Shown: positions 34,578-52,017 of the stretch, piece after piece
Layout of the letters: every line of letters starts with the position of its first letter
Position numbering within the stretch: position 1 is the first letter of the stretch
IMG/VR virus record: IMGVR_UViG_3300008050_007858
Location: 1 to 54,188 of that record
Direction: 5' to 3' (one strand)
DNA from: a virus
DNA: 54,188 nt
Position numbers and translations under genes: made by a program
The notes under the pieces: generated by a model
Databases searched by the model: none
What the model was told of the DNA's origin: nothing
Seen by the model: the letters and a program-made list of their open reading frames with translations, nothing else

Positions 34578-34597
34578 TCAAAATACTCCACTGGTGA

Positions 34598-34609: not shown

Positions 34610-34613
34610 CAAC

Positions 34614-35858: not shown

Positions 35859-36049
35859 TATTCCGTTTCAAACATCTGTTTCTCAGGTTGGATATTCGGT
35901 GATACAGTAGGGGGATTAGTAACGATAATTTCGTTTCCGCTCACATTAAGATCCCAGTCTTTAAGTAAGTCTGTAATGTCTATTTGTTCAGCCAGACACT
36001 TTTGTAAAGTCATCAAAAGAGCGCCGATGGCTTGGTCTGATAATTTCAT
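35858..36049 (-). CDS. small acidic phage protein of unknown function
   Basis: A 63-residue protein starting [20 protein letters not shown], likely an amphipathic helix, followed by EQIDITDLLKDWDLNV and a polar tail ending QMFETE. No membrane span or motif is visible. I recall proteins with 'GAL-x-x-x-LQ-x-x-L' starts and 'ITDLL-x-D(W/L)' cores in aquatic T4-like phages near the zinc-ribbon gene. It is coupled on both sides by ATGA and TAATG overlaps, so it is a real gene in this operon. Confidence 0.65.
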   Translation of the reverse strand: MKLSDQAIGALLMTLQKCLAEQIDITDLLKDWDLNVSGNEIIVTNPPTVSPNIQPEKQMFETE

Positions 36050-36456: not shown

Positions 36457-37399
36457 TTTTTTCCTTTCGTAAAACATCTTTAACCGTGTTTTTCCATGAA
36501 ATAAATTTATATCCCCGATCATCGATATATATATCGGCAGGGATTTTGAAGTTAGATATCTCATCAAAGTAGTGTCTTAGGTTTTTATCCTGTAGCCAAG
36601 AGTCGATTATAGACGCCGGCCGGGAGGATAGAACCACGAGCCTTTTCCCGGCTTCTTTGAGATGGTCTAGAGATTCTTTTAGGTCTTCCATTGGGTCGTC
36701 ATAGGCATTCATCAACCCCTGAAACCCTTGACTATACTTATGGATCACTCCATCAAAATCTACAGCAATTGTCCTCTTTTTTTCCAGAACATTAACCTCA
36801 TCGACGCTGGAAAGATACTCATTCTTTTCCAGATATTTTATTACCATATTAGCGCACTCTTCTAATGAGCCCCGACAAGTGTTAATGGTTATCTCTGGGT
36901 TAAGTGGTTCCTCATAGGGAGCACTTATACCGGTAAAATTAGGTATCTCTCCACTTCTTGCTTTTTTGTATAAGCCTTTGGGGTCTCGTTTTTCGCATAT
37001 TTCCAGCGGAGCTTTGACGTATATTTCAATGAAATTGCCTCCCATTACTGACCTAGCAGAGTCTCTATCCTCTCGATAAGGGGAGATGAAAGCCGTACAC
37101 ACCAGGCTTCCGGCATCAGCAAACAATTTAGCTACTTCGGAAATCCGCCGAATGTTCTCTTTTCTTTCGTGGGGTTTGAAACCCAGATCCTTATTGAGCC
37201 CCATTCTTACGTTATCCCCATCTAGAAGATGGGTTTGACATGAGCGGCGGTGAAGCAGTACCTCGACTGCGTTGGCTAAGGTAGACTTTCCAGAGCCTGA
37301 TAGTCCAGTAAACCAAAGAACTGCCGGCTTGTGTCCGTTTTTTAATATTTTGTCACGCAGTGCGACTGATGTATTATGAAAATGTAAATTTTTTGTCAT
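36449..37399 (-). CDS. cysC: APS kinase (CysC) fused to a HAD-type phosphatase domain
   Basis: A 316-residue two-domain protein. Residues 1-197 are adenylylsulfate kinase: Walker [10 protein letters not shown] (32-40), DGDNVR (60-65), [13 protein letters not shown] (104-116) and [20 protein letters not shown] (139-158). This enzyme phosphorylates APS to PAPS, the universal sulfate donor. Residues about 205-316 form a HAD domain: VDFDGVIH with Asp214 and Asp216 as motif I, VVLSSRP as motif II and ADIYIDDRG as motif IV. The HAD substrate is unknown; one speculation is PAP or another nucleotide by-product. The gene overlaps DUF2061 (ATGA) and the nucleotidylyltransferase. Host CysC proteins are usually about 200 residues without HAD. 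Confidence 0.9.
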
Positions 37400-37605
37400 G
37401 TGTTCTTAACTCCGAACTTGGATAGATTATACCACATTCTTTCGTGTCCGTAATACAAAAGTATCTTAGTTATTAATTCCACCGCACCTATTTTAACCCC
37501 GATCATTGGATCTCCAGAGATTAACCAACCCAATATAATTGTGTCAAGAGTTCCAACCATGCGCCAACTAATTGCTTTGGCGATATGTCGTTTACGAGCT
37601 ACCAT
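37396..37605 (-). CDS. DUF2061 small membrane protein
   Basis: A 69-residue protein matching DUF2061 (PF09834): [40 protein letters not shown] and YYGHERMW. Two hydrophobic helices (about residues 13-30 and 35-55) predict a membrane protein. In bacteria, DUF2061 proteins are frequently beside sulfate-activation genes such as cysC and cysN, though their role is unknown; linkage to cysC is repeated here in a phage. It overlaps cysC as ATGA and lies seven bases from the methyltransferase-like gene. No strong ribosome site precedes the ATG. Confidence 0.85.
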
Positions 37606-37612
37606 TATTCAG

Positions 37613-38230
37613 TCACCGCTCTTCCTTTTTTATTAGTTGATATGCGAACATATATAATCCATCTTCTTGTGGGCGTCGGACATTAAGTTTAATACCAACT
37701 TGAAATCCCTCTAAAGTAAATAACTTTTCATAAAACTGATTCATAAAATCCAGACTTATATCGGAGCTATCATCTACTTTATAAAATTTTTCTCTTCTTC
37801 GGGCCCATTGTATCTTGTCTTCAAAATCAAATGGTTTAGTTTTGACATTGAATATTATTATTGAATTGTCCGATACACACCCCAGGGAAGGCAAGAGGGA
37901 ATCAAAATGTTCACAATATTGATATTTACTACCATAACAGCCTTGTGGGTTGTCTAAAACAACCAAATCGTATTTACCCCCCTCTTCTTGGATCATCTTA
38001 TGGGAATCGCCAATAGAAACAACGGCGTTGCTGGGTAGGTTTTTTTCAAGATCATTTTTAAATCTTTTTTCTATCTCCCAAGCATGTACTTTGCTTACCT
38101 TGTGTGCGTAAAATTTTGTCTGCCAAGTTGCGTCTCGGGCAAAGAGATCTAGCGCAACGAATTTACTCATATCTATGTGGTGTTGGTTTTCTAATAAATA
38201 AATTACTTCCCTGATGGCGCTATCTCTCAT
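37613..38230 (-). CDS. SAM-dependent methyltransferase-like protein
   Basis: A 205-residue protein with a class I methyltransferase outline. FVALDLFARDATWQTKFYAH resembles motif I (normally DxFxGxGxxT), KVHAWEIEKRF supplies the acidic residue after strand 2, SIGDSHKMI the motif before strand 4, and YDLVVLDNPQGCYG strand 4 with a DNPQG instead of DPPY. The Gly-rich loop is atypical, so it may be a divergent or inactive enzyme. The substrate could be a sugar, protein or nucleic acid. It lies between the dehydrogenase gene (11-base overlap) and DUF2061. Confidence 0.6.
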   Translation of the reverse strand: MRDSAIREVIYLLENQHHIDMSKFVALDLFARDATWQTKFYAHKVSKVHAWEIEKRFKNDLEKNLPSNAVVSIGDSHKMIQEEGGKYDLVVLDNPQGCYGSKYQYCEHFDSLLPSLGCVSDNSIIIFNVKTKPFDFEDKIQWARRREKFYKVDDSSDISLDFMNQFYEKLFTLEGFQVGIKLNVRRPQEDGLYMFAYQLIKKEER

Positions 38231-39098
38231 CTGCTTGTTGATCCTTTACAAACTTCATCGGCTCCTCTATGGATACCGCTCTTCCTATAAGTTTTTCCCA
38301 GTCCCTGTCTGGTCGTACCTCAAGATTTTTTTCCCAAACCGCCGTCATAATTGCTGGGTTGATGTTGCATTCTAGCATGACTTTGATAATAGCGTTAACA
38401 TCCTTTGGAAAACAGGAGCCTCCAAAGCCATACCTACCATCGGGTCCTGGTGTTGATAAGTGTGTTTTGCCTATCCTTTTATCATACAATGAATATTCTA
38501 CAACTTTATCATAATCAATATTTTTTTGTTCGCATATTTGTCGCATTTCATTGGCAAAAGAAACCTTAGTAGCCAAAAAGCAATTACAGAAATACTTTAC
38601 CATTTCCGCCGTATTAGATCCAGTCTTAAGGATTGGAGTAGAGGGAAATCTTTTCCGATATAGGTTTTTAATTATTGTCGTTGCGGGGCGGGGACCTCCC
38701 ACAATAATTCGGTCTTGGTTCTTAAAGTCTTGTATAAAATTAGCTTCGGTTAAAAACTCGGGGTTGAACACTAGAGATAGGTTTTTATATTTGGACCCCA
38801 GCCGTTCGGTTGTGCCGGGAGGCACAGTTGACTTAAGGACTGCTATGTGCCCCTTAGAGAGTCGATTCAAATCTTCTAATACATTTTCTACGATCTCAGT
38901 ATTACAGCTACCATCTTTGTTCATCGGAGTAGGAACACAGACAAATATTATTTTAGACCTTTCACATAATTCCGTAAGAGAGGAACAGGTAGAATTTTTA
39001 TTAATGTCATATGTGTGAACCTCGAACACTCCTTCAAAGCCAACCCGAACGGCGGTCCCTACAAATCCCTGCCCTATGATCCCGATGTTATTATCCAT
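38220..39098 (-). CDS. short UDP-glucose/GDP-mannose 6-dehydrogenase
   Basis: A 292-residue enzyme of the UDP-glucose/GDP-mannose dehydrogenase family. GIIGQGFVG (6-14) is the NAD-binding loop, CVPTPMNKDG and STVPPGT are conserved loops, and GFGGSCFPKD contains the catalytic Cys229. Reaction: two-step NAD-dependent oxidation of the C6 alcohol of a nucleotide sugar to a uronic acid. The usual protein is 430 to 450 residues with a third, UDP-binding domain; this one stops soon after the central helix, without that domain. AGGAGGA before the ATG is a strong ribosome site. It probably gives acidic sugars for the glycan made by the surrounding transferases. Confidence 0.85.
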   Translation of the reverse strand: MDNNIGIIGQGFVGTAVRVGFEGVFEVHTYDINKNSTCSSLTELCERSKIIFVCVPTPMNKDGSCNTEIVENVLEDLNRLSKGHIAVLKSTVPPGTTERLGSKYKNLSLVFNPEFLTEANFIQDFKNQDRIIVGGPRPATTIIKNLYRKRFPSTPILKTGSNTAEMVKYFCNCFLATKVSFANEMRQICEQKNIDYDKVVEYSLYDKRIGKTHLSTPGPDGRYGFGGSCFPKDVNAIIKVMLECNINPAIMTAVWEKNLEVRPDRDWEKLIGRAVSIEEPMKFVKDQQADER

Positions 39099-39963
39099 GA
39101 ATATCCTCCTTTAATTTTTGAAAGCACTCGTGAATTCCGTCCCGAATATTTACATCGGTTTTCCATCCCAGTTTAAACAACGAAGAAGGTTGTGCTTGTG
39201 TTTCGAAGACATCTCCGGGGCGGCCATCCACATACTCGAAATGTACTTCTGGGAAATATTCTTGGCAGATTTTTTTCATTTCATTAAGAGAAATATTGGT
39301 CCCGGTTCCTGTGTCATACACTCCCCCATTAAATTTGCCCTCATATTCCATTGCAAAGATATTAGCCGCTACCACATCCCGCACATTTAACATATCACGT
39401 TTTTGATACCCCGTTCCGGTGATGAATGGATTTTTGTTTTGACGAATATATTCCATCCAATTAGCTACAGCAGTAGCATAAGCACCATCTGCCCTTTGGT
39501 CCGGGGAATACACATTAAAATATCTTAAAGATACGGTATCAATACCATATAACTTGGCGTATAAAGTGGTCTCTATTTCTGAGGTTAACTTCTGGAGTGC
39601 GTAAGGACTTTCGGGACCGTCACCGTTTCCAACTACTGAGGATGAGCTAGAATAAACAAACCTCTTACACTCTACTTCCCTCGCAAGATCTAAAATCCAC
39701 GACGTCGCTAAAGTATTATTAATCATTGTAGAGAGAGGATTTTCAACACTGAACTCTACTCGGGGCCAGCACGCTAAATGGAATATAATTTCCGGGTTAA
39801 AGTCTAAGTACTTCTGGCGGGATGACCCACTTAGTATCTCTGATATCTCACCCGAATTTTCATCTTCTGTATCGATACCTATTATTTCATGCCCACGCAT
39901 CATTAACGTATTATACAGGTGTGTTCCGATATATCCTTTATGTCCCGTTACTAAACACCGCAT
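39091..39963 (-). CDS. NAD-dependent sugar epimerase/dehydratase (extended SDR, GalE/WbpP-like)
   Basis: A 290-residue extended short-chain dehydrogenase. TGHKGYIG (6-13) is the NAD-binding loop, YSSSSSVVG and YALQK (Tyr121/Lys125) are the catalytic Ser-Tyr-Lys triad, RYFNVYSPDQR and DMLNVRDVV are typical of GalE, WbpP and related 4-epimerases or dehydratases. It converts a nucleotide sugar in the cytoplasm; which one is not readable from sequence. It lies directly upstream of the dehydrogenase, with an eight-base overlap. Together they could give uronic or epimerised sugars. Start ATG 39963 has GGGAGAA upstream. Confidence 0.85.
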   Translation of the reverse strand: MRCLVTGHKGYIGTHLYNTLMMRGHEIIGIDTEDENSGEISEILSGSSRQKYLDFNPEIIFHLACWPRVEFSVENPLSTMINNTLATSWILDLAREVECKRFVYSSSSSVVGNGDGPESPYALQKLTSEIETTLYAKLYGIDTVSLRYFNVYSPDQRADGAYATAVANWMEYIRQNKNPFITGTGYQKRDMLNVRDVVAANIFAMEYEGKFNGGVYDTGTGTNISLNEMKKICQEYFPEVHFEYVDGRPGDVFETQAQPSSLFKLGWKTDVNIRDGIHECFQKLKEDIHG

Positions 39964-39978
39964 CGTTGGATTCTCCCT

Positions 39979-40569
39979 CTACATATTCAGATTATAAAGC
40001 ATAGAGTAGTAATTTTTAACCTGTGGAGAAAAAAAGTCTACTTTTATATTAGATGTTTTAAACTTTTCAAGTTCTAGGTAATCTTTACCGCTTGGTCCCG
40101 AGAGGTATATTGAAGCTTCTGTCCTTTTACAGATATCCAATAACAAATCGGTCTTGGAGCCAGTGACACCTAGAGATGAAGCATATATTATGGGCGTAGT
40201 AATATTCATTCTTTCTCTACACCATTCGATAGACCGCATATTGATGTCTATTAGTTTTTCGTGCTCATAAATTGATGTGGCGTCCATCTTAAGGTTGTGA
40301 GATATTTTCTTAATCACCTTTTTTCGCCAGTGATTGAGTGAATTATCTACTGTTACCACATCTTTGATCATCTTAGAAGTGCTACTTTTAGGTACTGAAA
40401 CACCAAACCACTCCTCGGATCCCTGTTTGTTCAGGAATTTATTTCTATTTTGAAAGTAGTTTTTTCTATATTTAACACAATCAAGAACGATAAACAAATC
40501 CGCACAATCCATCTTTTGAAAAAACCCTTCATAAGGGAAGTGTTCCGGTTGATGTATGGTTACTATCAC
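39979..40569 (-). CDS. WbqC-like protein
   Basis: A 196-residue protein of the WbqC family (PF08889). The N-terminus VTIHQPEHFPYEGFFQKM is diagnostic, followed by the conserved YRKNYFQNRNKFLN and SGPSGKDYLELEKF segments. WbqC proteins occur in O-antigen and surface-polysaccharide clusters and are thought to be enzymes acting on sugar nucleotides or amines; the reaction is not firmly established. The start is GTG overlapping the previous stop (GTGA), with AGGAAACC upstream. Its presence among sugar-modifying genes supports a surface-glycan pathway. Confidence 0.85.
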   Translation of the reverse strand: MIVTIHQPEHFPYEGFFQKMDCADLFIVLDCVKYRKNYFQNRNKFLNKQGSEEWFGVSVPKSSTSKMIKDVVTVDNSLNHWRKKVIKKISHNLKMDATSIYEHEKLIDINMRSIEWCRERMNITTPIIYASSLGVTGSKTDLLLDICKRTEASIYLSGPSGKDYLELEKFKTSNIKVDFFSPQVKNYYSMLYNLNM

Positions 40570-41330
40570 CTGAGGTTTCCTAATATTTTCTCCTTAGTAT
40601 CAATTTGCTCAAAGATGCTGGATTCTGTATCAAATTTCTTTTTAACCACCATCAAATTACAATAATGGTGGAAAAATAAAATATCATTTCTAAACTCCCG
40701 AGGATTCATGTTGAGATATTTCTCTATATTTTGCGATATAGGGTGAGAAAAATTAGCCCTATTAGATTTGTCGGCTTGTATCCTTTTCTCTACCAAATTC
40801 GATGAAAAAATATCCAAATCTACCGAACGAATTTGTTTAACCAAAAACTCATCCCATTTATCTCTGTCCTGGGGGTATCCTAAGAAATGGTTATGGAACA
40901 CCATACTTGTATCTTCTATAAAATATAACCCTCCATTTTTTAAGCTTTCCCAAAGATATTCATAAGAATTTATCATATGGAAAAACACATGACTTCCGTC
41001 ATCAATTATAATATCAAAATCAATTTTCTTGATTGGATCAAAAGTGCTAGGGTTATTTTGGTCACCAATAAGGATTTCTATATTTTCTTCCTTGTGGCTT
41101 AAGCATTTTGGATCAATGTCTACTCCCCATATTTTAGCATTTGGAAAATATTTCTTCCACAACCTTAGGGATTCTCCATTTTTTACTCCAATTTCTAAGA
41201 TGTTTACCTTCTCCTGGCGAAGGGCGTGAAGGTAGAAATCATAGATCGGATAGTAGTGCGCAAATTTATCCGTATTCATGTTATGTTTGGCTGCTTCTTT
41301 TTTATCAATATTAGTTAAAGGGGTGTCCAT
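40566..41330 (-). CDS. class I SAM-dependent methyltransferase (sugar O-methyltransferase-like)
   Basis: A 254-residue protein. HYYPIYDFYLHALRQEKVN precedes motif I ILEIGVKNGESLRLW, then WGVDIDP, VLIGDQ-like EILIGDQNNP and FDIIIDDGSH. This layout matches the family that includes macrolide and rhamnosyl O-methyltransferases and surface-sugar methylases. The likely job is O-methylation of a sugar residue. CAGGAG lies seven bases before the ATG. It is flanked by WbqC (GTGA overlap) and PIG-L. The DNA here is visibly more AT-rich than the virion genes. Confidence 0.75.
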   Translation of the reverse strand: MDTPLTNIDKKEAAKHNMNTDKFAHYYPIYDFYLHALRQEKVNILEIGVKNGESLRLWKKYFPNAKIWGVDIDPKCLSHKEENIEILIGDQNNPSTFDPIKKIDFDIIIDDGSHVFFHMINSYEYLWESLKNGGLYFIEDTSMVFHNHFLGYPQDRDKWDEFLVKQIRSVDLDIFSSNLVEKRIQADKSNRANFSHPISQNIEKYLNMNPREFRNDILFFHHYCNLMVVKKKFDTESSIFEQIDTKEKILGNLR

Positions 41331-41359
41331 TTATTTGATCTCCTGTATTAGTATTAAAA

Positions 41360-41989
41360 TCATATCCATTTTAATATCCTATAGCACTCATAATGTTTGT
41401 ATTTTCCTTTTGTAAAATTTTCATGAAAATAGCGGGTTCCGAAATCGTAGTGAGACTCACTCTGAAGGTAATATCCTAGCTTACTGTAGGATTGTTCTAC
41501 ATTTATATCATAAAAGTTTAGCATCTTCTTTTTGATGTTAAATTCTTCTGATTCTAACCCGAGCCAATAATTTGGAACAAAGTTTAATGAACTGGGGGAG
41601 TAAAAAGTGATGAATTTATTACAATACTTATAAAGACCTTTGGATATATAATGGAGACTAGTATGGTCTGTATGACAATCTTCACTGTCGTGAGTCACAA
41701 GATCAAATACACCTTGTTTAAAGTCGATCGATTTATAAATTTTATCCTTCACCAAGTCAAAATTAGTGGTTAAAGATCGTTGATCAAATCCTAAATTAGT
41801 ATACTTTATTTTTCTTCCACACATTTCTTCTATGAGAGACAAATTACGTTCCCAAATACTCACTTTAGGAGCCCAAGTAGAAGCAGTAATAATTTCAATA
41901 TTGTTATACAGTGAGTGATTCCTCAACAAAAATCCCAAACACGAGATTTCAAAATCATCTAGATGGGCCACAAAAAAATAAAGAGTCAT
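41360..41989 (-). CDS. PIG-L/LmbE-family deacetylase
   Basis: A 209-residue protein. FVAHLDDFE (7-14) is the AHxDD(E) zinc motif of PIG-L deacetylases, slightly changed from the usual AHPDDE, and ITASTWAP and ERNLSLIEEM are the following conserved blocks. CHTDHTSLH (105-113) supplies the second H-x-D-H ligand pair. These zinc enzymes remove the N-acetyl group from GlcNAc-containing lipids or sugars. Within this cluster it would create a free amine on a glycan building block, which might then be sulfated, methylated or acylated. The ATG overlaps the upstream stop (ATGA). Length is normal. Confidence 0.85.
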   Translation of the reverse strand: MTLYFFVAHLDDFEISCLGFLLRNHSLYNNIEIITASTWAPKVSIWERNLSLIEEMCGRKIKYTNLGFDQRSLTTNFDLVKDKIYKSIDFKQGVFDLVTHDSEDCHTDHTSLHYISKGLYKYCNKFITFYSPSSLNFVPNYWLGLESEEFNIKKKMLNFYDINVEQSYSKLGYYLQSESHYDFGTRYFHENFTKGKYKHYECYRILKWI

Positions 41990-42957
41990 GTCGAAAGCAT
42001 CCTTACTATATCCTCGTGAGCTACACGACAGCCCTCCTCCATAGAATATGCTCCTTGGGCGAATTCAAAAGCCTGTTTAGACAAATTGTGGGTTGAGGCC
42101 TCTCTGATTTTTTCGATCATCTCGGCAAAAGAGTGCGGGTTATGATTTTTATATTGAAAACAATAGGCGTAAGCGGACTTGTGAGTTAAAACTAAATCGG
42201 AGATTATACAGGGAGTTCCTCCTCTTAGTGATTCAAAAATAACCCTGGGGCTGGGATCAAAAGGCTGAAAGGGTCTTGGGTCTGTGGTCAAAAATGAAAA
42301 CTTTGATTTTCTAATCTCTTCAGCCACCACCTCCCTCGGAACATCTCCCAAAAAGCGATAAGATAAAGATTTTCTTTCAAGTATTGTTTTGATAGTGTCA
42401 ACATAGGGCTGGTTTCTTACAGGTCCTATGAACACAAACTCGTGAGATTTGAAATCTTCCGGGGATATCAGGTTGAGGAATTCTATTTGATTTTTATCTG
42501 TCCCGAGACTGCCGACACAGACTATTTGTTGTGGTCTGTCTTGGTATGGATAATAGGATGAAAATATCTCCTGCATTTCGGGAGTAGGCGGCTTAATAAG
42601 TTGACCATCGGTAAAATAAGCATCAACCCCCTCTAAATTACCCGGAACTCCCAAGGGTATCAAGTTAATAACTTTAGTAGTGGGAGAATAAAAACTCTTG
42701 CCATAAGTTTGAAACGCACTGCTTTTACAGATAATGTAGTCATATGAGATAGATCTTAGGTACTCAATGTCAACATTTTTAAAAGAATTTTCTCTCTCGT
42801 ATTGAAGGGAAAATTCTCTCTTATCCTTCTTGAAATAGGAATAGACATTGTGATAGTAACGGCTAAAATAGGCAGGCAGTTCATTGCCTTCAAGTTGTCT
42901 TGTTTCCGGAGAAAAATGAAGAAACAAGATTTTAGATTTTTTATTGAAGAACGTCAT
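41986..42957 (-). CDS. GT-B glycosyltransferase
   Basis: A 323-residue protein with a GT-B outline. The N-terminal half starts KSKILFLHFSPETRQLEGNE and ends near PLGVPGNL. The C-terminal half opens with QIVCVGSLGTDKNQIEFLNL and has HEFVFIGPVRN and, as the donor-binding motif, PSPRVIFESLRGGTPCIISD, which carries the conserved Glu. A donor sugar cannot be named. It overlaps the sulfotransferase gene by 17 bases and PIG-L as ATGA. It lies among the most AT-rich genes of the window. Confidence 0.75.
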   Translation of the reverse strand: MTFFNKKSKILFLHFSPETRQLEGNELPAYFSRYYHNVYSYFKKDKREFSLQYERENSFKNVDIEYLRSISYDYIICKSSAFQTYGKSFYSPTTKVINLIPLGVPGNLEGVDAYFTDGQLIKPPTPEMQEIFSSYYPYQDRPQQIVCVGSLGTDKNQIEFLNLISPEDFKSHEFVFIGPVRNQPYVDTIKTILERKSLSYRFLGDVPREVVAEEIRKSKFSFLTTDPRPFQPFDPSPRVIFESLRGGTPCIISDLVLTHKSAYAYCFQYKNHNPHSFAEMIEKIREASTHNLSKQAFEFAQGAYSMEEGCRVAHEDIVRMLST

Positions 42958-43711
42958 CGTGTTTCCAATACCGGGAAAATATATTTTTTTCGTCTCTGGA
43001 TCCTATGAGAATCAAAGTGTCCTTAATGTCTGAGTCGGATATTTCTGGGGTTTTCGTATCTGCAGTTAATTTTACTTGTTGAATCCATTCGTTATTCATT
43101 TCGATCCCAAGCCAGTTACCTATGTTAGAAACACTGCTATCAAAATCATGAAGAATATCTTCATAATAAACACGCAAGAATAAGTCGGGATTTAAGTGAT
43201 CCTCTATATTCGCTGCCTGTAAAGAATCTTCTATCACCTTGGTACAAGCTGCCTCAAATGTGTCATAACCATGAGATTTCATATATGAACGAGCAGCAGC
43301 GGCTGGATGACGAACTAAGTGTAAAAAATAGAAATTATTTTCCTTGGACAATAACAAAAGGTCTGTTGGGGATTCTCTAAAAATTTGTGTAGTGCCGCCA
43401 GCTTTTTTGTCGCCTACAACTAATATCTTTTTCTTTTGAAACTCTGGGGATTTAGACAGGTGCCCCATGCCCTTCCATCGCTCTTGATATTGGGACATAT
43501 TATATCCTGTATTTTCTAGTCCATTTTTAAATTCGGCTAGCGCATTCTGATACAAATCTTGGAGGGCTCTGTCGTAAGGGTATGAGTGGTTGATAACTTT
43601 GTCCAAAAATCTAGATTCATTAGATATCAAACAATTGGGGTGATAATTCAGTACTTGCCCTACGAAAGTACTTCCGGTTCGTCCACTACCAATAAAACAA
43701 AGGTATTTCAT
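42941..43711 (-). CDS. PAPS-dependent sulfotransferase
   Basis: A 256-residue protein. CFIGSGRTGSTFVGQVLNYH (5-24) is the 5'-phosphosulfate-binding P-loop of the sulfotransferase superfamily, and HLVRHPAAAARSYM (131-144) is the 3'-phosphate-binding motif with Arg134 and Ser142. A central Glu/Asp-rich part and the C-terminal NNEWIQQVKLTAD-DTKTPE-like region are also usual. It transfers sulfate from PAPS to a hydroxyl or amine acceptor. PAPS would come from the CysC protein encoded about 5.5 kb downstream on the same strand. The acceptor is probably a sugar, given the neighbours. Start ATG 43711, one base after the GT8-like gene. Confidence 0.85.
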   Translation of the reverse strand: MKYLCFIGSGRTGSTFVGQVLNYHPNCLISNESRFLDKVINHSYPYDRALQDLYQNALAEFKNGLENTGYNMSQYQERWKGMGHLSKSPEFQKKKILVVGDKKAGGTTQIFRESPTDLLLLSKENNFYFLHLVRHPAAAARSYMKSHGYDTFEAACTKVIEDSLQAANIEDHLNPDLFLRVYYEDILHDFDSSVSNIGNWLGIEMNNEWIQQVKLTADTKTPEISDSDIKDTLILIGSRDEKNIFSRYWKHDDVLQ

Positions 43712-43712
43712 C

Positions 43713-44459
43713 TCAAAATTCCATAAAGTTTTTCTTACAAAATTCCAAAGCTTGCTCTAAGGACTCCACTTGATATTGTCCTTGGTTGATTTTTGGGTCA
43801 GCGTGCATATGATAAATTCTCGGCTTAAGGTGGTCGTCGCCAAATTCATGATGAAACTTTCGTTGCTTTTCTCGATTAGCTTTGCTGCGAATATTATATT
43901 CTACCGGCAGGATATAGAGTTTAAGACCTTCTTTACACCCCTCCCACAATGAAGCCCTAAAAGAGGGTTGGTCCCAGGGAGATATATGAAAATACCTATA
44001 AAAATATTCTTTCCAACGAGCGAAGAGTCGATTAGCTTGTGGACTCTTCCTGTATCCCATAACACCCGTGTTTACTTCTGAAAAAGCATATGGAACTACT
44101 CCATATTCGGGTATAGTGGTGGTGTATTTCTTTCTCTTACGAGCTAAATCATGGCATATAACCACGTCAAAAACATCCAACATCTCAAACACATCCGATA
44201 TATCATGATTAACAATGGTATCTGTATCTAAAAAGATAGTGGACTCATACGGAGATTGATCCATGTAATCAATCTTAGATCTTAGGTGACTAACTGTAAT
44301 TATTTTTAAATTGTCGATATGGGGAGATTCCACATCACGGTCAGCAAACATGGTGATATCTATGTCGGGCATCGCTTGTTTAACAGACTGGGCCGAGAGA
44401 AGGGCTTCTTTTATGAAGTTTTCCCCATAAGCTATATAAAGAATTCCTTGTGACGTCAT
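43713..44459 (-). CDS. GT-A fold glycosyltransferase, GT8-like
   Basis: A 248-residue protein with GT-A features: ILYIAYGENFIKEALLSAQS as first strand and helix, IFLDTDTIV with the metal-binding DxD (Asp78-Asp80), and GVMGYRKS, PWDQPSF and HMHAD later, as in GT8 and related retaining transferases. It would add one sugar from a nucleotide donor. No membrane segment or signal is seen, so it acts in the cytoplasm. It starts with ATG two bases after the preceding gene. The sugar donor and product are unknown. Confidence 0.75.
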   Translation of the reverse strand: MTSQGILYIAYGENFIKEALLSAQSVKQAMPDIDITMFADRDVESPHIDNLKIITVSHLRSKIDYMDQSPYESTIFLDTDTIVNHDISDVFEMLDVFDVVICHDLARKRKKYTTTIPEYGVVPYAFSEVNTGVMGYRKSPQANRLFARWKEYFYRYFHISPWDQPSFRASLWEGCKEGLKLYILPVEYNIRSKANREKQRKFHHEFGDDHLKPRIYHMHADPKINQGQYQVESLEQALEFCKKNFMEF

Positions 44460-44460
44460 T

Positions 44461-45450
44461 TTATTTTTTTATCCTTCTTATTTCATTATACACTTTTTGA
44501 GCCCATTGTATAGGGTCGTACTCTTGATCGAATTTAAGCTTGGCCGATCGGGAAACTTCGGTTCGATGAGACGGATCTTTCAAATTTTCAAATGCTTTTA
44601 ACCAGCTATGCTTGTAGTGGGCTAGGTACCCACATTGCTCATCCCCGAGTAAGTGAAAATTGCTGGGAGTTATATCTGCTACAACTGGGATTCCTAACTG
44701 ATGGAACACAAACGCTCTTCCAGCATTGGACTTATTTTTAAACCTAATCGTATAATCCGTTGAGTACAGCCCAAGATCAGGATCCGTCACTGTCTTGTCG
44801 AACTCCCCAGGAGTCATAGAGGTTACATTAGGAACTAGACCAATATCACACTCTCGTAGACTCTTTTCTATAGTATCATAGTTCCAATATTCTAGAGTGA
44901 TATTGGGGATTTTTGGTATCCCCACTGTCCAGGATTTAAACCCAGGGGAAGTTATAATTTTTAAGGTTATAGGGTTTGTCTCGCTAAACTCTTCCAGGGC
45001 AGTTGTTAGGTGAGGAGAAAATTTACACAAATGAGTGTGGCTTCCATGATAGCCAAAAATCAAATTCTTCTTATTTGAGTGAGTCTTAAGCGGAATATCC
45101 CTGAACATATCCTCAATTAGGGGGAAATAAAAGACATTGGGATGATGAGACAAACTTATTTTTTCTTCTATGGATCCCACAATAATAAAATCTTGACCCA
45201 CATGATCGTTGTCGGACGCTAAATTTATCGCTCCATAAATTTTGTCAGTATATTTCTCTTTGAGGGGTTGTATCAGATGTGAGTCATTTTTTGAAACAAT
45301 GATGACATCTGCTTTTTCTACTTCTTCTGTAACGGCGGTAATCTGGGAGTTAATGCCCGCTTCGTTAAAGTACTTATTGAGATCTCGAACCCATATCCTA
45401 TACGATCCTACAGCACAGTTATGATCGCTACTTACAAATACTATTTTCAT
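44461..45450 (-). CDS. GT-B glycosyltransferase-like protein
   Basis: A 329-residue protein. IVFVSSDHNCAVGSYRIWV and VIIVSKNDSHLI give the N-terminal Rossmann half, LIFGYHGSHTHLCKFSPHLT the interdomain segment, and RECDIGLVPNV and NAGRAFVFHQLGIPVVAD the C-terminal half. The usual donor-site 'E-x7-E' reads RAFVFHQLG here, so a canonical Glu is missing and the catalytic state is uncertain. It could act on an unusual donor or be a partner subunit. It is one base from the GT8-like gene and two bases from the methyltransferase. Confidence 0.65.
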   Translation of the reverse strand: MKIVFVSSDHNCAVGSYRIWVRDLNKYFNEAGINSQITAVTEEVEKADVIIVSKNDSHLIQPLKEKYTDKIYGAINLASDNDHVGQDFIIVGSIEEKISLSHHPNVFYFPLIEDMFRDIPLKTHSNKKNLIFGYHGSHTHLCKFSPHLTTALEEFSETNPITLKIITSPGFKSWTVGIPKIPNITLEYWNYDTIEKSLRECDIGLVPNVTSMTPGEFDKTVTDPDLGLYSTDYTIRFKNKSNAGRAFVFHQLGIPVVADITPSNFHLLGDEQCGYLAHYKHSWLKAFENLKDPSHRTEVSRSAKLKFDQEYDPIQWAQKVYNEIRRIKK

Positions 45451-45452
45451 TT

Positions 45453-46121
45453 TTAGAATCTTTTACGAATGATTACTTGATGATTAGGATTACCGCTGGC
45501 TGCGTTGCCGACTCTATATATTTTCACATCCTCAGCGCCCTTGATTAACCTCTCTATATCGTAGTAACAGCCAAACCTTTTGTCAAAGTCATCAAATATC
45601 CAGATAGGATTATCGGACTGTACATCTCTCAGGTTTATTACATCTTTAACCACGTCGCCATAATCGTGAGCGCCGTCGATATAAAAGAGATCAATCTTGT
45701 TATTTGACTCTTTAATTTTGTCGGCCATATTTTTGCTATTTCCTAATACAAAAGTGGTATCACTCTTGAGCCTTTCACTATACTCTATATTTCGAACGTC
45801 TTTAATATCACAACTCCAAATATGTCCGCCAGAAGCCTTGAGTGTGTGGGCGAATGTATAAAATTGAAGACCTTCGGCAGTTCCTACCTCAGCTATATTT
45901 TGGACATTAAAGTGTTGAACTATAGTGGACAGATAATATGGTCTACGCTGTAGCTCGGAAAAACATTGTTTAGTTTGAGCCTCGGACAGCTTATGGGTAT
46001 GAGCCTTATTTGCTTGGACCTTGAGAGATATATCTTCCCATATATTGATGTATTCTTGGGGAGGTGTCACCTCCTTTATATCAGGATATGTTTTTATGGT
46101 CAGTTTTTGTTCATTGTTCAT
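45453..46121 (-). CDS. class I SAM-dependent methyltransferase (Methyltransf_24-like)
   Basis: A 222-residue protein from ATG 46121. NIAEVGTAEGLQFYTFAHTL is motif I, then SCDIKD, and IDLFYIDGAHDYGDVVKDVI is the strand 4 block typical of Methyltransf_24. IFDDFDKRFGCYYDIERL follows. O-methylation of a sugar or small molecule is likely. The open frame reaches up to 46172, but I choose 46121: AAGGA lies seven bases before it (46133-46129), and it gives the ATGA overlap with the previous gene seen throughout. The longer form would overlap that gene by 55 bases. Confidence 0.75.
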   Translation of the reverse strand: MNNEQKLTIKTYPDIKEVTPPQEYINIWEDISLKVQANKAHTHKLSEAQTKQCFSELQRRPYYLSTIVQHFNVQNIAEVGTAEGLQFYTFAHTLKASGGHIWSCDIKDVRNIEYSERLKSDTTFVLGNSKNMADKIKESNNKIDLFYIDGAHDYGDVVKDVINLRDVQSDNPIWIFDDFDKRFGCYYDIERLIKGAEDVKIYRVGNAASGNPNHQVIIRKRF

Positions 46122-47026
46122 TGAGTGGTCCTTGGCGATATCATGAAGTCTAGATATTTTTGAGATACCCATTCCATATCGTAGCTTATATTATACTCAT
46201 TAATGCTCTGTTTTGTAAAGTCTAATTTGGGTGGCTCATATAACTTAACGGGAGCTAAGTTCCACTCATCTTCGTCAATGATTGTAGCTCCCAAGCCAGC
46301 CACCTCTTTGGTACCACCAGACGAAGAACAAATGATCTTACACCCACAGGCACGGGCATCAACCACAACATTGGGACAATGGTCCAACCAAGCTAAGTGG
46401 ATAAAATAATCACACGACTTCAAAATAGCCAACAAATAATGGTATTTAATATTTCCTAAATATTTTACTCGTGGATTCTCAATAGGTTTATTTTTTACTT
46501 CTCCGGCAATGAGCAATATATCTTTAGGTCCGGAGTACTTCATGAAATATTCGATATTCTCTTCTAACCTTTTGTGAGGTCTCCAGTGAGAGGCGCAACA
46601 CCACACTTTCTCATACCTGTCTTGGATATTAGAGATATTATGAGGCAGTTCATCTATCTGCTTCAGGTTGGCCCCGTTATGTATCACAATAGAGTGAGGG
46701 TGCTCCCCAAAAAAATGTGTTGTTAGTTTTTTGTTGAATTCGCTCTGAAAAATAACTCCTGTCGCATTGTCATAAGTTTTTTTAATCAACCTGTTCTGTT
46801 CCGAATAATTTTCAGAAGAATTAAAATATATTCCATCGAGCCTTTGGTACAACCCTCCTACTACTGGTTGACGAGTAGACTCAATAAACGCCAAGGTGGC
46901 AGTGGGATCTTCGTACACATTAAAAGTTACCCCTTTGTCTCCTAGGGCGTCGAACAACTTCCTCCCAAAACAGTTAGGCCCAGTATTGCTGGTTAAATTT
47001 ACATTTTGTAGGTGGAGGTTAGTCAT
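46118..47026 (-). CDS. GT4-like glycosyltransferase
   Basis: A 302-residue GT-B protein. NLTSNTGPNCFGRKLFDALG opens the acceptor domain, FQSEFNKKLTTHFF and IVIHNGANLK lead to the linker, and WCCASHWRPHKRLEENIEYF starts the donor domain. ILLIAGEVK, YHYLLAILKSCDYFIHLAWL and HCPNVVVDARACGCKII with SSSGGTKEV complete the GT4 pattern; the usual Glu in the donor motif is Asp here (VVVDARA). It is one member of the transferase run, overlapping the following gene by four bases and the previous by eight. Confidence 0.8.
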   Translation of the reverse strand: MTNLHLQNVNLTSNTGPNCFGRKLFDALGDKGVTFNVYEDPTATLAFIESTRQPVVGGLYQRLDGIYFNSSENYSEQNRLIKKTYDNATGVIFQSEFNKKLTTHFFGEHPHSIVIHNGANLKQIDELPHNISNIQDRYEKVWCCASHWRPHKRLEENIEYFMKYSGPKDILLIAGEVKNKPIENPRVKYLGNIKYHYLLAILKSCDYFIHLAWLDHCPNVVVDARACGCKIICSSSGGTKEVAGLGATIIDEDEWNLAPVKLYEPPKLDFTKQSINEYNISYDMEWVSQKYLDFMISPRTTQ

Positions 47027-48653
47027 AGCTCTTAGGGTTGTATCTAGATTTTTTTCGAATTTCTAGCATGTTCTGATACTGCTCGTGTTGGCTCTTTTTA
47101 TTGACAGCGTTTGGATTACCCACGTTGTAAACACATAACACTTCTTTTATAAAGTGACTCCGGTTGGCAGCTAGTTCTAAAGCTGGGAGCATTATAGCCT
47201 GATCATAGGAGGACTTATAATATTGTCCATCAATATCTAAAAAGTCCTTAGGGTCTATGTCTTTCCATACCCTATGTTTTAATGTTTTAAGGTGGGATGC
47301 TCGCCACACATCTTTACGAAAGTTATTTTCCCTTACGGTGAGGTCGGGATACGCAGAAGATTCGCTTCCTATTTTACCAGTGGGGTACTCTATAAAGCTT
47401 CCAAACGTAACAAGAGCTTCGTCGCCATAGTATTTGTCCAAGGTATCTAAGACATACTTATTGGATAGCCAATCATCTCCGTCTAAAATAACGATAATTT
47501 CTTCATCGTCAGGGCTGGCTTCTCTAATAAGATCTTCTATGTTCTTGAGCGCATATTTTTTCGTTTTATTTTTAAATAAGTGAAACCTTTTATCTTCCCC
47601 TACAAACTTTTTAGCAAAAGTATAAGTAGAGTCCGTAGATAAATCATCGCCGATATAACATCTCCAATTTGGGTTATTTTGCCCAGAGATGCTTCCTAGG
47701 GCTTTTTCTATCCATGGATCAGAATTAAACACTGGGACGATAAAGAGATATTGATTCATTTTTGTGGCAGGAGACGGGGTAGGGACACGGGGGGCTATAG
47801 TGTGAGAATGTAGGGTATCCCAAAAAAATTCTGCTCGACCTTCTAAATATTCCCTCATTTGCGCAATATTTCTGTTTTTGAACCACGTCTCTTCTTGGTG
47901 CTGGACATTATCATTAAGGATCAGCTTAGATCCCAGAAGAGCCGCCTCAATCACGAGGCGGGGGCATGTATCGGCTCCTTTGGGCAAAAAGATCAAACCT
48001 TGGTGGGAAGCTATCTTATTCAACATCGCCCTATAGGGTAATCCCGACACTATTTCGTACTTTAAATTATTGTTTTGTGCGTAAAAAATAGCGTCTTCGG
48101 TACCTTTTATCCACGAGTCCGATCCCAATATAAGATAAGACTCTTCTTTAGCTTCTGTTGGCTTGGTTTCTTCAGCTAGAGTATCTAAAAGTTCAGAGTT
48201 AAAGATTGAACTGAGGATATAATTAGATTTTGTCTCAAGCATAGGAAAACGCTCAAAATATCTCTTACTCTGATCTTCACTCATCCAAAAAACACTAGAA
48301 GCTTTAGCGAGAAACACAGCGAACAGTTTTCCAAATGAGCTTTGGTCACACTGACATGATCCCTCTATTTCTATGTGTTTTTCTATCGATCTTAATTTAC
48401 AAAATTTATAATCGTACTCTACCACTGAATATTGGAGGGTTTTAATAGCCTCAATATAACTAGTTTTATCCATGTGGGAGGCATTTGTAAAAACCCAGTG
48501 ATAATCCTTTAAGGAGTGAATTATTTCGGAAGTGACCTGATGAGAGTACAATTTAATGACCGGGACATCGGCTAGATCAATCAGCCCCTGGGTGGAAAGC
48601 TCTGCTCCGCCCACATAATCTTCCACATAGGCATCTGCCACAAAAACATACAT
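47019..48653 (-). CDS. two-domain glycosyltransferase (GT-B half plus GT2)
   Basis: A 544-residue protein. Residues 1 to about 285 read as a GT-B-like transferase (YVGGAELSTQGL, SYLILGSDSWIKGTEDAI, LIFLPKGADTCPRLVIEAAL with Glu237). A Pro/Thr linker (RVPTPSPATK) follows. Residues about 299-544 are a GT2 family enzyme: QYLFIVPVFNSDPWIEKAL, CYIGDDLSTDSTYTF and VILDGDDWLSN with the DxD at Asp391 to Asp393. Two activities in one chain could add two sugars in sequence. A Cys pair (GSCQCDQ) in the first half is odd. The start ATG overlaps the next stop as TAATG. Confidence 0.8.
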   Translation of the reverse strand: MYVFVADAYVEDYVGGAELSTQGLIDLADVPVIKLYSHQVTSEIIHSLKDYHWVFTNASHMDKTSYIEAIKTLQYSVVEYDYKFCKLRSIEKHIEIEGSCQCDQSSFGKLFAVFLAKASSVFWMSEDQSKRYFERFPMLETKSNYILSSIFNSELLDTLAEETKPTEAKEESYLILGSDSWIKGTEDAIFYAQNNNLKYEIVSGLPYRAMLNKIASHQGLIFLPKGADTCPRLVIEAALLGSKLILNDNVQHQEETWFKNRNIAQMREYLEGRAEFFWDTLHSHTIAPRVPTPSPATKMNQYLFIVPVFNSDPWIEKALGSISGQNNPNWRCYIGDDLSTDSTYTFAKKFVGEDKRFHLFKNKTKKYALKNIEDLIREASPDDEEIIVILDGDDWLSNKYVLDTLDKYYGDEALVTFGSFIEYPTGKIGSESSAYPDLTVRENNFRKDVWRASHLKTLKHRVWKDIDPKDFLDIDGQYYKSSYDQAIMLPALELAANRSHFIKEVLCVYNVGNPNAVNKKSQHEQYQNMLEIRKKSRYNPKSYD

Positions 48654-49903
48654 TAAATGTCCAGTTGAGAAAAGAGTTCATCTATTTCTTCACTGGTAGA
48701 GTCCATCTCCAAAATGGCGTCTACATACTTTTGATATATTTTTTCCTCTGAAAATTCAACCTTTAAATATTCCTGTAACTGTTTTGCCATGGATCGCTTA
48801 GCCCCTAGAGCTTCATAAGTGCTACGCAGCGATTTCTTATATGCTTCTACATCTACATAAGCCCATTTTGTGCCCCGGTTTATAACCCCATCCCAGACTG
48901 CTGCTTCTTCCACTGGTTTTAAATCGTATTTAATTTTGGTAAACAGAGGGGCTTTTTTGACCCTCCCGGATGTTGGGTTTTTCACAGGAGCGTACAAGAA
49001 ATCATTTTGGCCTGACCAAGCAGGCGCTACGACGGGCAATCCACTATAAGCAGCTTCAAAAATTGGTAGACCATACCCCTCGCCATGAGTAGTCGTTATA
49101 TAAGATTTCACAGAAGGAATTTTATATAAAGAATGAAGCTCATCTTCGCTTAGGTTTCCATGAACCAGATATACTTGACATTTTCTATCCGGATATTTTC
49201 CGCACCACGAGGAAATCTTCTTTGTGGTCATTTCATCGTCGATGATAGAATGGTTTCCCGTGTGGAACTTTAACAAAAGACCCACATCATCATTATCATG
49301 AAATTCTTCTATGAAGTTCTTTACGAGGGTGCCCACGTCCTTACGGGGGGATATCTGAGCTATCGCTAAGAAATTAAACTTTGTTTTTAGGTCGAGGTTG
49401 AGATCCACTACCTTCTTTTCCTTGACAGGATATCCAATAACGTCTATTGGTGTCTCTAGTCGCACTATGCCAGTCTCGCCAGTCTTTTTATCCTCAAATG
49501 GATAAGAAGTATTCAGGGAGCACTTAGCATGTTCAGATACTACAATGATTTTATCCACTTGGTTACATGCTTGAATCCATTCTGGGGATGCTTTATCTGT
49601 TTCTATTCCTGCGGTTACGCCGATATTAATAGTTGCGTGGTTTTGCCACTCAGTAGGCACCGTTACCTGAAGGGATATATCAAACTTGCCGCCGACATGA
49701 GCCATTTTGTTCATACACTCTAAGATACCCTTGGTCTCGGGATCATTGGTATCAATTGGCCAATTTGATACGCCCCACTCAATAGGCACCACATATATAT
49801 CAAATTGGTCCGGGCGGCTCTTTAGGGCTCTGTAAACGAGGCGGGCGTGTTCTCCATATCCACTCTTACTGAGAATTGGTCCCTTTAATAGTACTCTTAT
49901 CAT
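48653..49903 (-). CDS. GT4-like glycosyltransferase
   Basis: A 416-residue GT-B enzyme. VLLKGPILSKSGYGEHARLV has the Gly-rich acceptor loop; INIGVTAGIETDK and IIVVSEHAKCSL follow; FLAIAQISPRKDVGTLVKNF opens the donor half; GEGYGLPIFEAAYSGLPVVA is the canonical 'E-G-[FY]-G-L-x-x-x-E' donor motif. It is of full family length. Start ATG 49903 overlaps the neighbour as ATGA. It likely adds a sugar to a growing glycan; donor and linkage are unknown. Confidence 0.85.
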   Translation of the reverse strand: MIRVLLKGPILSKSGYGEHARLVYRALKSRPDQFDIYVVPIEWGVSNWPIDTNDPETKGILECMNKMAHVGGKFDISLQVTVPTEWQNHATINIGVTAGIETDKASPEWIQACNQVDKIIVVSEHAKCSLNTSYPFEDKKTGETGIVRLETPIDVIGYPVKEKKVVDLNLDLKTKFNFLAIAQISPRKDVGTLVKNFIEEFHDNDDVGLLLKFHTGNHSIIDDEMTTKKISSWCGKYPDRKCQVYLVHGNLSEDELHSLYKIPSVKSYITTTHGEGYGLPIFEAAYSGLPVVAPAWSGQNDFLYAPVKNPTSGRVKKAPLFTKIKYDLKPVEEAAVWDGVINRGTKWAYVDVEAYKKSLRSTYEALGAKRSMAKQLQEYLKVEFSEEKIYQKYVDAILEMDSTSEEIDELFSQLDI

Positions 49904-51165
49904 ATCGTTTTAAATCTCCATTTTTGATGGTTTTTTCTTTCTTCCCAAGATCCATTTTTCTCATGGAAATCAGTCATACACTGAACCCATCTATCTTTAA
50001 AATCGCTGAAGTTGTAATTCTTTTCTACATGTGCTCTTCCTGCTTTTCCGAGTTGGGCTCGTTCCTCAGGGCTCATTTCATATATTTTAACCAAAGAATC
50101 AATAAATTCTTCTTTAGTGATCCTATCCTCGTATATCCATGGCACCTGTTGGGATCCTATGACAGCCTTGGAGGCGGGCTCAATACCTATGCCAAAATAA
50201 TTTTCGCCGTCGGTGACCTGCTCCTGTAATCCCCCGGTCATGTTAACGATAATGGGTGTCTCACAAGACAGGGACTCCAGGGTTGATAACCCAAAACCTT
50301 CGGCATCTGATATATTAACCGTACAATCGGCCAAGTTATACATGAGGGATAAATCCTGCGCACTGATCTTGTCTACAGAAAACCCTATTTGCCCATTGGT
50401 GAGACCCAAATCATCAGCAATGTAGTCCAACGGCTGTCCGTGGGGATCGTGAAGATCAGTGTGCATAAGAAGAGTTGCTTTATCATGCCCCACTCGATCG
50501 AGGAATTCCTTGAACCAGAAGATCAAAGTACCAGATTGTTTTCTGCGGGCGTTTCGATTATTCCAGAAAAATACTACTTTGCCATCCATCTTATATTGTT
50601 GACGAATATTCGAGATTTTTTCCCTGTCCTCGCTGGAGATTTTCTTTTTAAAAATATGGGTATCCACTGCGTGAGGAATGTATTGTTCATCAATGGTGGG
50701 ACTCACGGTCCTCACAATGTCGCTAGTAACCTTAGAAATAGTAGCTACCTTATCGTTGGAATCATATTTACTCTTGTTAAACACGGGATAAGGATAATTA
50801 TCCCAAACATGGTAATAGATCATAGGCACGTTCTCCCGGATCTCATCCTCCATGTGCCACAACCAATCATAAAAACGTGGGTCCGTCATAAAATATAAAA
50901 TATCAGGCTTGAATTGTAACAAACAGCGCCGTATTTCCTGTTGAGTCCCATATGCTTTAACTGGCTGTATGATCCAGTCATTCCCATAGGCTTCCACAGC
51001 GGTTGTTTCATAAGAGGGGTGATCTACTGCTCCTCCTAGTGAAATTACTTTAAACTTCCCGCTTTGAAGGAGGGCCTCTATAATATACTTAGTCTGGGTG
51101 GCTACCCCAGAAGGAAGTAAAGGATGATCACTAATAGTCATCACTGTTATCTTTTTATCGGTCAA
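49900..51165 (-). CDS. GT4-like glycosyltransferase (TTG start)
   Basis: A 421-residue GT-B protein. ITVMTISDHPLLPSGVATQT has the Gly-rich acceptor loop, YHVWDNYPYPVF and SKVTSDIVRT follow, VVFFWNNRNARRKQSGTLIF opens the donor half, and ISDAEGFGLSTLESLSCETP is the canonical donor motif. The start is TTG 51165, chosen because AGGAGG (51179-51174) stands eight bases upstream and no ATG is nearer than codon 9. The Shine-Dalgarno site overlaps the stop of the previous gene. This is the first gene of the glycan run in the direction of transcription. Confidence 0.85.
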   Translation of the reverse strand: MTDKKITVMTISDHPLLPSGVATQTKYIIEALLQSGKFKVISLGGAVDHPSYETTAVEAYGNDWIIQPVKAYGTQQEIRRCLLQFKPDILYFMTDPRFYDWLWHMEDEIRENVPMIYYHVWDNYPYPVFNKSKYDSNDKVATISKVTSDIVRTVSPTIDEQYIPHAVDTHIFKKKISSEDREKISNIRQQYKMDGKVVFFWNNRNARRKQSGTLIFWFKEFLDRVGHDKATLLMHTDLHDPHGQPLDYIADDLGLTNGQIGFSVDKISAQDLSLMYNLADCTVNISDAEGFGLSTLESLSCETPIIVNMTGGLQEQVTDGENYFGIGIEPASKAVIGSQQVPWIYEDRITKEEFIDSLVKIYEMSPEERAQLGKAGRAHVEKNYNFSDFKDRWVQCMTDFHEKNGSWEERKNHQKWRFKTI

Positions 51166-51177
51166 GTTGATGTCCTC

Positions 51178-52017
51178 CTATGAACAATATTCCGTCTGGT
51201 AAAACTCGCACGTTCCGAAACGGTCTTTACAGTTTGTACACGCAGCCCGGTTTTTGATATAATTTTCTTTGGTAATATTATGTAATGCTTTAGTCAAAGC
51301 GTTAAGGGCATCTGTCGTTCTTTTTTTAGCTGCCGTCACTCTGACGAATTCTGCCTTCTTGCCGGCTTTCGCTGTTCGCTTCAATAAAACGAAGTGACAA
51401 TCCACATCTTTGGGGTCAACTTCGTACTTCTGGGCATAGAAATGCTTGTAGAATACGAGTTGATAAGCGAGGATTTTGTCGCTCTTCTTTTCACGCTTCC
51501 ATCCCCAAGAGCAGGTCTTCCAATCAATCAGGTGAACTTTTTCATCCTTCTTGGAGTAGACCACGAGGTCAATAAAACCTTTGAAGTTTTTTTCTGCTTC
51601 CGTGAATTCTGTGATGGGTACATAGAGTTGTTCTTCTGCTTTGAGTACTTCCCAGTCCTCGCCCAGCTTGCCGAACTTGTCGGCTAGGCATCGGTAAAGG
51701 TCCGGAACGATTTCAATACCATTTACAAGCCACTCTTTGAGTTTAAAATCACGCTTGGCTCGCTGTTGCTCACTCTCGGGCAGAGCTTTGAGTTCTTTCA
51801 AGAACTGCTCTTTAACTAGCGTTTCAATTGTGCCGGCACCTCTGTACTTTTCGGGAGAAGTCAAAGTAAATTCACAAACAGTGTGAAGAGCCTTCCCAAA
51901 AGCAGTGAAAATGTTGCCCTCGAACTGGGCAACCTTGTCAATGTAAGTTAGTTTGTGATAGTGGGGGCAGATGTGCCAGTTCCGCCACTCGGAATACGAA
52001 ATGTGTTTGCCGGCCAA
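51178..52017 (-). CDS. PD-(D/E)XK nuclease with probable Fe-S cluster (RecB/Cas4-like)
   Basis: A 279-residue nuclease of the PD-(D/E)XK superfamily. FGKALHTVCE contains the conserved His45, KGFIDLVVY the active-site Asp150, and VHLIDWKTC the Asp165-x-Lys167 pair. Cys17 near the N-terminus together with Cys260, Cys263 and Cys270 at the C-terminus has the spacing of the Cas4/AddB iron-sulfur cluster; Cys278 is an extra candidate. Such phage enzymes process DNA ends in recombination or degrade host DNA. Start is TTG 52017 with AAGAAGG six bases upstream. It lies between the metalloprotease and the first glycosyltransferase, with 12- to 14-base gaps. Confidence 0.85.
   Translation of the reverse strand: MAGKHISYSEWRNWHICPHYHKLTYIDKVAQFEGNIFTAFGKALHTVCEFTLTSPEKYRGAGTIETLVKEQFLKELKALPESEQQRAKRDFKLKEWLVNGIEIVPDLYRCLADKFGKLGEDWEVLKAEEQLYVPITEFTEAEKNFKGFIDLVVYSKKDEKVHLIDWKTCSWGWKREKKSDKILAYQLVFYKHFYAQKYEVDPKDVDCHFVLLKRTAKAGKKAEFVRVTAAKKRTTDALNALTKALHNITKENYIKNRAACTNCKDRFGTCEFYQTEYCS

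Follow-up and report, generated by a model that had tools for sequence, protein, structure and literature searches.

Glycans made by virus-encoded enzymes have been described on the capsids of chloroviruses, where they have a conserved core (PMC7826918), on the virion proteins of XacN1 (PMC5852040) and, according to work cited in PMC12619734, on the capsid and tail tube of mycobacteriophages. Pelagimyophages, which are T4-type marine phages, carry a hypervariable, glycosyltransferase-rich region that is mixed with tail-fibre genes and has been read as encoding modifiers of the host O-chain (PMC7029224). In the annotated records of Flavobacterium phage immuto and Microcystis phage Mel-JY01, a nuclease, two glycosyltransferases and variable sugar genes follow one another in a glycan cassette. 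Finally, the sulfated capsule clusters of the bacteria Vibrio sp. KMM 8419 and Cobetia marina KMM 1449 group APS kinase, sulfotransferase and glycosyltransferase genes, and PAPS-synthesis genes plus a sulfotransferase are a hallmark of sulfated polysaccharide clusters, according to a paper on a sulfated bacterial capsule (PMC11641403).

We compared these systems with a glycan gene cluster in an IMG/VR viral record, a fragment of 54,188 bp (hereafter the window). As in chloroviruses (PBCV-1), mycobacteriophages and XacN1, the glycosyltransferases are virus-encoded and probably cytoplasmic, but the acceptor is proven in those systems and only proposed here, and sulfation is not reported in the excerpts of those sources that we consulted. 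The hypervariable region of the pelagimyophages is similar, although the paper describing it mentions no sulfotransferase. The immuto and Mel-JY01 cassettes have the same gene order, but differ in showing about 30% identity in the glycosyltransferase pair, in their other sugar genes and in having no annotated APS kinase or sulfotransferase. The KMM 8419 and KMM 1449 clusters include ATP sulfurylase and ABC export genes, both of which the phage lacks. Relative to known glycan islands, the new details are sulfate activation with two sulfotransferase families, and a constant two-enzyme anchor.

The original prediction described fourteen consecutive genes at 37613-51165. We confirmed the cluster but counted 15 co-directional genes. 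They lie on the minus strand and are transcribed from the 51165 end towards lower coordinates; neighbouring genes overlap slightly or are separated by no more than about 30 bp, and the run continues past 37613 to about 36046. The following genes were assigned by profile matches to Pfam, PHROGs and NCBIfam, and are given with their conserved flanks in the direction of transcription.

52697..54004, minus strand: PhoH-like gene, conserved left flank (PF02562 4.8e-50; phrog_2765 1.2e-106)
52032..52700, minus strand: metallopeptidase-like gene (HExxH), conserved left flank (weak Pfam matches only)
51178..52017, minus strand: PD-(D/E)XK-type exonuclease, conserved left flank (phrog_69 1e-19)
49900..51165, minus strand: GTB1, GT-B (GT4-like) glycosyltransferase, constant head of the island (PF00534 8.9e-12)
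48653..49903, minus strand: GTB2, GT-B glycosyltransferase, constant (phrog_2170 1.2e-18)
47019..48653, minus strand: two-domain glycosyltransferase with a C-terminal GT2 domain (PF00535 1.9e-16, residues 304-425)
46118..47026, minus strand: GT-B glycosyltransferase (PF00534 1.7e-9)
45453..46172, minus strand: methyltransferase (PF13578 4.9e-13)
44461..45450, minus strand: possibly GT-B, judging by a C-terminal motif (no Pfam, PHROGs or NCBIfam family)
43713..44459, minus strand: nucleotide-sugar transferase, GT77/GT8-like (PF03407 3.1e-8; GT8 model PF01501 below cut-off)
42941..43711, minus strand: sulfotransferase (PF13469, Sulfotransfer_3, 3e-13; GSGRTGST loop and LVRHP motif)
41986..42957, minus strand: GT-B glycosyltransferase (PF00534 6.2e-7)
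41360..41989, minus strand: possible PIG-L type deacetylase (PF02585 8.3e-4, 20.3 bits against a cut-off of 28.2)
40566..41330, minus strand: methyltransferase (phrog_21658 6.6e-24; PF08242 5e-6, below cut-off)
39979..40569, minus strand: WbqC-like protein (PF08889 2e-43)
39091..39963, minus strand: SDR nucleotide-sugar epimerase/dehydratase (PF01370 4.4e-42; phrog_540 2.6e-55)
38220..39098, minus strand: nucleotide-sugar (UDP-glucose type) dehydrogenase without the C-terminal domain (TIGR03026 1.9e-62; only PF03721 and PF00984)
37613..38230, minus strand: putative methyltransferase by motif only (no Pfam, PHROGs or NCBIfam family)
37396..37605, minus strand: DUF2061 small membrane protein of 69 aa, overlapping the APS kinase start (PF09834 5.6e-21)
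36449..37399, minus strand: APS kinase fused to a HAD domain (PF01583 7.4e-67; TIGR00455 equivalog, 256.8 bits against a cut-off of 138.7)
36046..36456, minus strand: NadM-like nucleotidyltransferase linked to the APS kinase (NF002243 2.8e-16, below cut-off; PF01467 5.5e-6)
34281..35858, minus strand: conserved right flank, encoding a zinc-ribbon protein and three small proteins; muramidase and baseplate genes come next

The proposed nucleotide-sugar dehydrogenase, SDR epimerase, WbqC protein and sulfotransferase are all supported by profiles. The proposed glycosyltransferase types were recovered as four GT-B enzymes and one C-terminal GT2 domain, with GT8 represented only by the PF03407 type, while two of the three proposed methyltransferases have profile matches, the third (37613-38230) belonging to no family, and the PIG-L assignment is weak, below the Pfam cut-off. 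The sulfate-activation module (DUF2061, APS kinase-HAD and nucleotidyltransferase, 36046-37605) had been overlooked. The protein at 44461..45450 is 58% identical in a sister phage; its AF2 model is unreliable (pLDDT 40.6), and a profile comparison with GTB1 was not significant. The C-terminal domain typical of the dehydrogenase family is missing from 38220-39098 and also from its 85% identical sister, and the short form is therefore stable.

PhoH, the metallopeptidase-like gene, the exonuclease, the cluster, the small genes, the muramidase and the gp25/gp6-type baseplate genes all lie on the minus strand of the window. The metallopeptidase-like gene has homologues in 147 of 160 loci; its position between PhoH and the exonuclease is kept in relatives, at 61% identity compared to 89-91% for its neighbours, a faster divergence. 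A megablast of the window against INPHARED gave no match, and relatives were therefore drawn from IMG/VR, where scans returned 75 loci for PhoH, 4 for the APS kinase and 80 for GTB1. The window is a fragment that lacks the region of the T4-type major capsid protein Gp23, which was found in all six large relatives tested. By Gp23, the nearest cultured phages are Mel-JY01 (37% identity over 98% of the query), immuto (45% over 65%) and Rhodothermus phage RM378 (43% over 56%), the last of which appears in the "Far-T4" phage literature. From the baseplate genes in the window and Gp23 in its relatives, the island appears to be carried by a T4-superfamily myophage lineage whose nearest cultured members are immuto, Mel-JY01 and RM378, as the T4-like label of the original prediction anticipated. 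Host assignment from binned contigs was discarded, as five bins gave five unrelated groups and probably contain mis-binned phage DNA. Beside the baseplate genes, at 13099-22665, we additionally identified a protein of 3188 aa with a concanavalin-like lectin domain (PF13385 9.5e-8), a candidate receptor-binding or fibre protein.

We stitched the region in 30 relatives, 29 of which retain both flanks. In these 29 IMG/VR contigs the island occupies the same site between conserved phage flanks, and measures 5.8-25.5 kb from GTB1 to the right flank, with 6-31 ORFs that are nearly all co-directional. Its content is exchanged much faster than its surroundings. Relatives whose PhoH is 83-86% identical to that of the window have 0-9% of island genes in common with it, compared to 70-82% of flank genes, and between pairs at 85-95% PhoH identity a mean of 29% of island genes have a homologue in the partner island, compared to 81% of flank genes. 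Even the closest sister (G001), whose island matches that of the window at both ends and in the sulfotransferase, retains from the PIG-L, MT2, WbqC and MT1 genes only a WbqC-like gene, at 26% identity and amid unrelated genes. The sister phage (L082:12868-13614) provides an example of cassette exchange: a formyltransferase-type gene takes the place of unrelated genes of the window. Comparison of sister phages gave saturated dN/dS values for nearly all genes.

The 459 island ORFs of at least 120 aa from 28 relatives fell into 220 clusters. SDR epimerases, methyltransferases, GT2 enzymes, aminotransferases and cytidylyltransferases were the commonest families among 145 cluster representatives, and the islands of the relatives, like that of the window, are rich in glycosyltransferases and sugar-nucleotide enzymes. 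One of them, in IMGVR_UViG_3300032086_003797 (L077:270-5262), encodes a transketolase split into two ORFs, an RpiB-type isomerase, a PfkB kinase and a HAD phosphatase, which suggests a phage-encoded route from pentose-phosphate intermediates to an unusual sugar. The comparison with related phages that had been proposed as a check is thus positive: this is a hypervariable phage glycan island of a known kind at a fixed site.

These data also bear on a chimeric assembly, in which a host capsule locus would have been joined to phage contigs. At 0.389, the GC content of the island falls a little below the 0.421 of the window, as such a junction might produce, but sister contigs also have a large part of this island, set between the same flank genes, and the site is occupied in all 29 relatives with phage genes on both sides. 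A scan of a genome collection with conserved GTB1 patterns, which distant forms may escape, returned only five loci, all flanked by phage genes, and not the host chromosome copy by which the prediction proposed to recognise a chimera. We consider this explanation already refuted. Separately, CP070664.1, a WOR-3 MAG "chromosome" (L220:6613-11044), contains a phage segment of PhoH, metallopeptidase, exonuclease and GTB1 that ends inside GTB1, with no phage homologues beyond, and is probably itself an assembly chimera.

In contrast to the remainder of the island, its first two genes are constant. GTB1 and GTB2 head the island in the relatives, with GTB2 present in 140 of 160 loci. In immuto and Mel-JY01 the order is PD-(D/E)XK nuclease (the annotation carried there by homologues of the exonuclease at 51178..52017), GTB1, GTB2 and variable cassette, with one gene separating the nuclease from GTB1 and with GTB1 of Mel-JY01 split into two ORFs; in RM378, GTB1 and GTB2 are adjacent and there is no cassette. 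We found no description of such an anchor in the open-access literature searched, a single library and weak evidence of novelty. The AlphaFold2 model of GTB1 (pLDDT 90.4) matches GT4-type enzymes, and its top solved match is a chlorovirus glycosyltransferase (PDB 3oy2, E 1.3e-20), although at 18% identity this tells little about the acceptor.

The constancy of this pair bears on what is glycosylated. The main rival to a phage-made acceptor is that the phage enzymes act at the inner membrane on host lipid-linked precursors or the LPS core, with the host flippase and ligase exporting the product and superinfection being blocked. This reading, which we consider somewhat unlikely, is the published one for the glycosyltransferases of pelagimyophages (PMC7029224). 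The enzyme classes are those of O-antigen loci, in which genes for WbqC, SDR enzymes and dehydrogenases are likewise present; the hypervariability would be consistent with phages competing with one another; and no membrane enzymes would be needed, as transferases for lipid-linked precursors can be soluble. However, GTB1 and GTB2 remain constant although the cultured relatives infect Flavobacterium, Rhodothermus and Microcystis, which belong to different phyla and probably have no surface glycan core in common, and the acceptor would therefore more easily be phage-made.

The export machinery was likewise sought. As in a bacterial capsule or O-antigen locus, nucleotide-sugar and glycosyltransferase genes are combined in one cluster, but neither an initiating sugar-phosphate transferase nor Wzx/Wzy or ABC export genes were found in the window or its relatives. 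The initiating sugar transferase family PF02397 was absent from 39 records. By hydropathy count, no protein in any of the 29 islands had more than two predicted spans, a count that missed DUF2061 and excludes only proteins with many spans. Autonomous lipid-linked export therefore finds no support. The absence of an initiating transferase, flippase, polymerase and acyltransferase-like multi-span protein from all 29 islands also argues against host-surface remodelling. The predicted lack of Wzx, Wzy, an ABC transporter and a lipid-carrier transferase accordingly extends from the window to its relatives, the view that the phage alone does not make an exported polysaccharide is upheld, and the likeness to a capsule or O-antigen locus is retained for the enzyme classes but not for the architecture.

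Another target would be the phage DNA, with glycans on its bases as in T4 and other glycosylated-DNA phages. Work cited in PMC12619734 indicates that phage glycosyltransferases can build diverse DNA glycans, and DNA would be an acceptor constant across phages. Nevertheless, the thymidylate synthase/dCMP hydroxymethylase family PF00303 was absent from 28 records, several of them of 150-204 kb, in a search whose control worked; Tet_JBP (PF12851) gave no match in a search run without a positive control; and the top 50 fold matches of GTB1, which resembles GT4 enzymes, include no DNA glucosyltransferase. We regard DNA glycosylation as highly improbable. The island encodes predicted soluble glycosyltransferases, as virion glycosylation would involve. 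The T4 late-promoter motif was not enriched, and promoters do not tie the island to virion genes. Between virion decoration and host remodelling, both left open by the original prediction, we lean towards a phage-made acceptor; the virion glycans of chloroviruses, XacN1 and mycobacteriophages serve as precedents.

Finally, we investigated the sulfate module. An APS kinase was identified in 8 records among the window and 50 relatives, and a sulfotransferase in all eight, from two Pfam families: Sulfotransfer_3 in the window, G001 and G023, and Sulfotransfer_2 in G013, G014, G015, G017 and G022. An initial check of Sulfotransfer_3 alone had recovered 2 of the 7 APS-kinase relatives, and the pairing with Sulfotransfer_2 in the other five emerged on further looking. 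Among the 43 records without APS kinase, only two (G021 and G030) had a sulfotransferase over the cut-off. The naive Fisher test gives p = 7e-8 for this pairing, although the records share ancestry. When the APS kinase is mapped onto a concatenated backbone tree of 29 phages, its distribution takes two changes, a single clade being rejected (p 0.019), and the sulfotransferase follows the APS kinase in nearly all pairings of two independent pairs, too few for significance; the link rests on two phylogenetic events only.

The APS kinase always lies at the island end, with strong DUF2061 matches in the same eight records, directly upstream of it where read. The walker loop and motifs of 36449..37399 align with solved APS kinases, and by sequence it qualifies as a true member of this family. 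In both APS-kinase lineages it is fused to a HAD domain, the C-terminal third of the protein, which could remove the by-product PAP. No ATP sulfurylase (PF01747) was found over the cut-off in 10 records, and the host should therefore provide the APS. That the NadM-like gene might form APS instead is speculation, as the 36046 protein has better matches to NMN adenylyltransferases and only a weak one to PF01747. The DUF2061/APS kinase end together with the sulfotransferase looks like a PAPS supply plus sulfation.

This module could instead comprise unrelated auxiliary metabolic genes, the island serving a free or small intracellular glycoconjugate or host metabolism. The resemblance of the APS-kinase-linked nucleotidyltransferase to NMN adenylyltransferases and the sulfotransferases without APS kinase in G021 and G030 fit such a role, but the APS kinase is always island-terminal and always accompanied by a sulfotransferase in the same island, and we judge it improbable. 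In one huge phage of 462 kb, an APS kinase has no glycan genes around it. APS kinase matches filed under Salmonella and "Pseudomonas phage Y4" in the phage collection were set aside, as they look like bacterial DNA; in the unverified Y4 record (OQ572406.1, L229:2940-11517), the APS kinase adjoins sulfotransferase-like and glycosyltransferase-like ORFs.

The best explanation, in which our confidence and our doubt are evenly balanced, is that a sulfated glycan is built in the cytoplasm on a phage-made acceptor, its core conserved and its outer sugars exchangeable. GTB1 and GTB2 would place the first sugars on this acceptor, most likely a virion protein, in the host cytoplasm. Nucleotide-sugar synthesis and the addition of outer sugars and methyl groups would fall to the exchangeable genes downstream, as would sulfation in this phage. 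Host APS would be converted to PAPS by the APS kinase, and the sulfotransferase would spend this PAPS on the glycan. A more ambitious version, distinctly doubtful at present, is a lineage whose virions bear sulfated, serotype-like variable glycans on a conserved inner core set by GTB1/GTB2 and which supplies its own PAPS, perhaps with the compact NadM-like protein as a minimal APS-forming enzyme.

A sulfotransferase that shares an exchangeable glycan cassette with its own sulfate-donor gene can be assigned a role concrete enough to be tested. Islands of this kind can be recognised by their GTB1-GTB2 pair, whose presence in the cultured phages immuto, RM378 and Mel-JY01 offers a direct route to the acceptor. 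If that acceptor is the virion, these phages would vary their own surface much as bacteria vary their serotypes, in a manner comparable to the chloroviruses.
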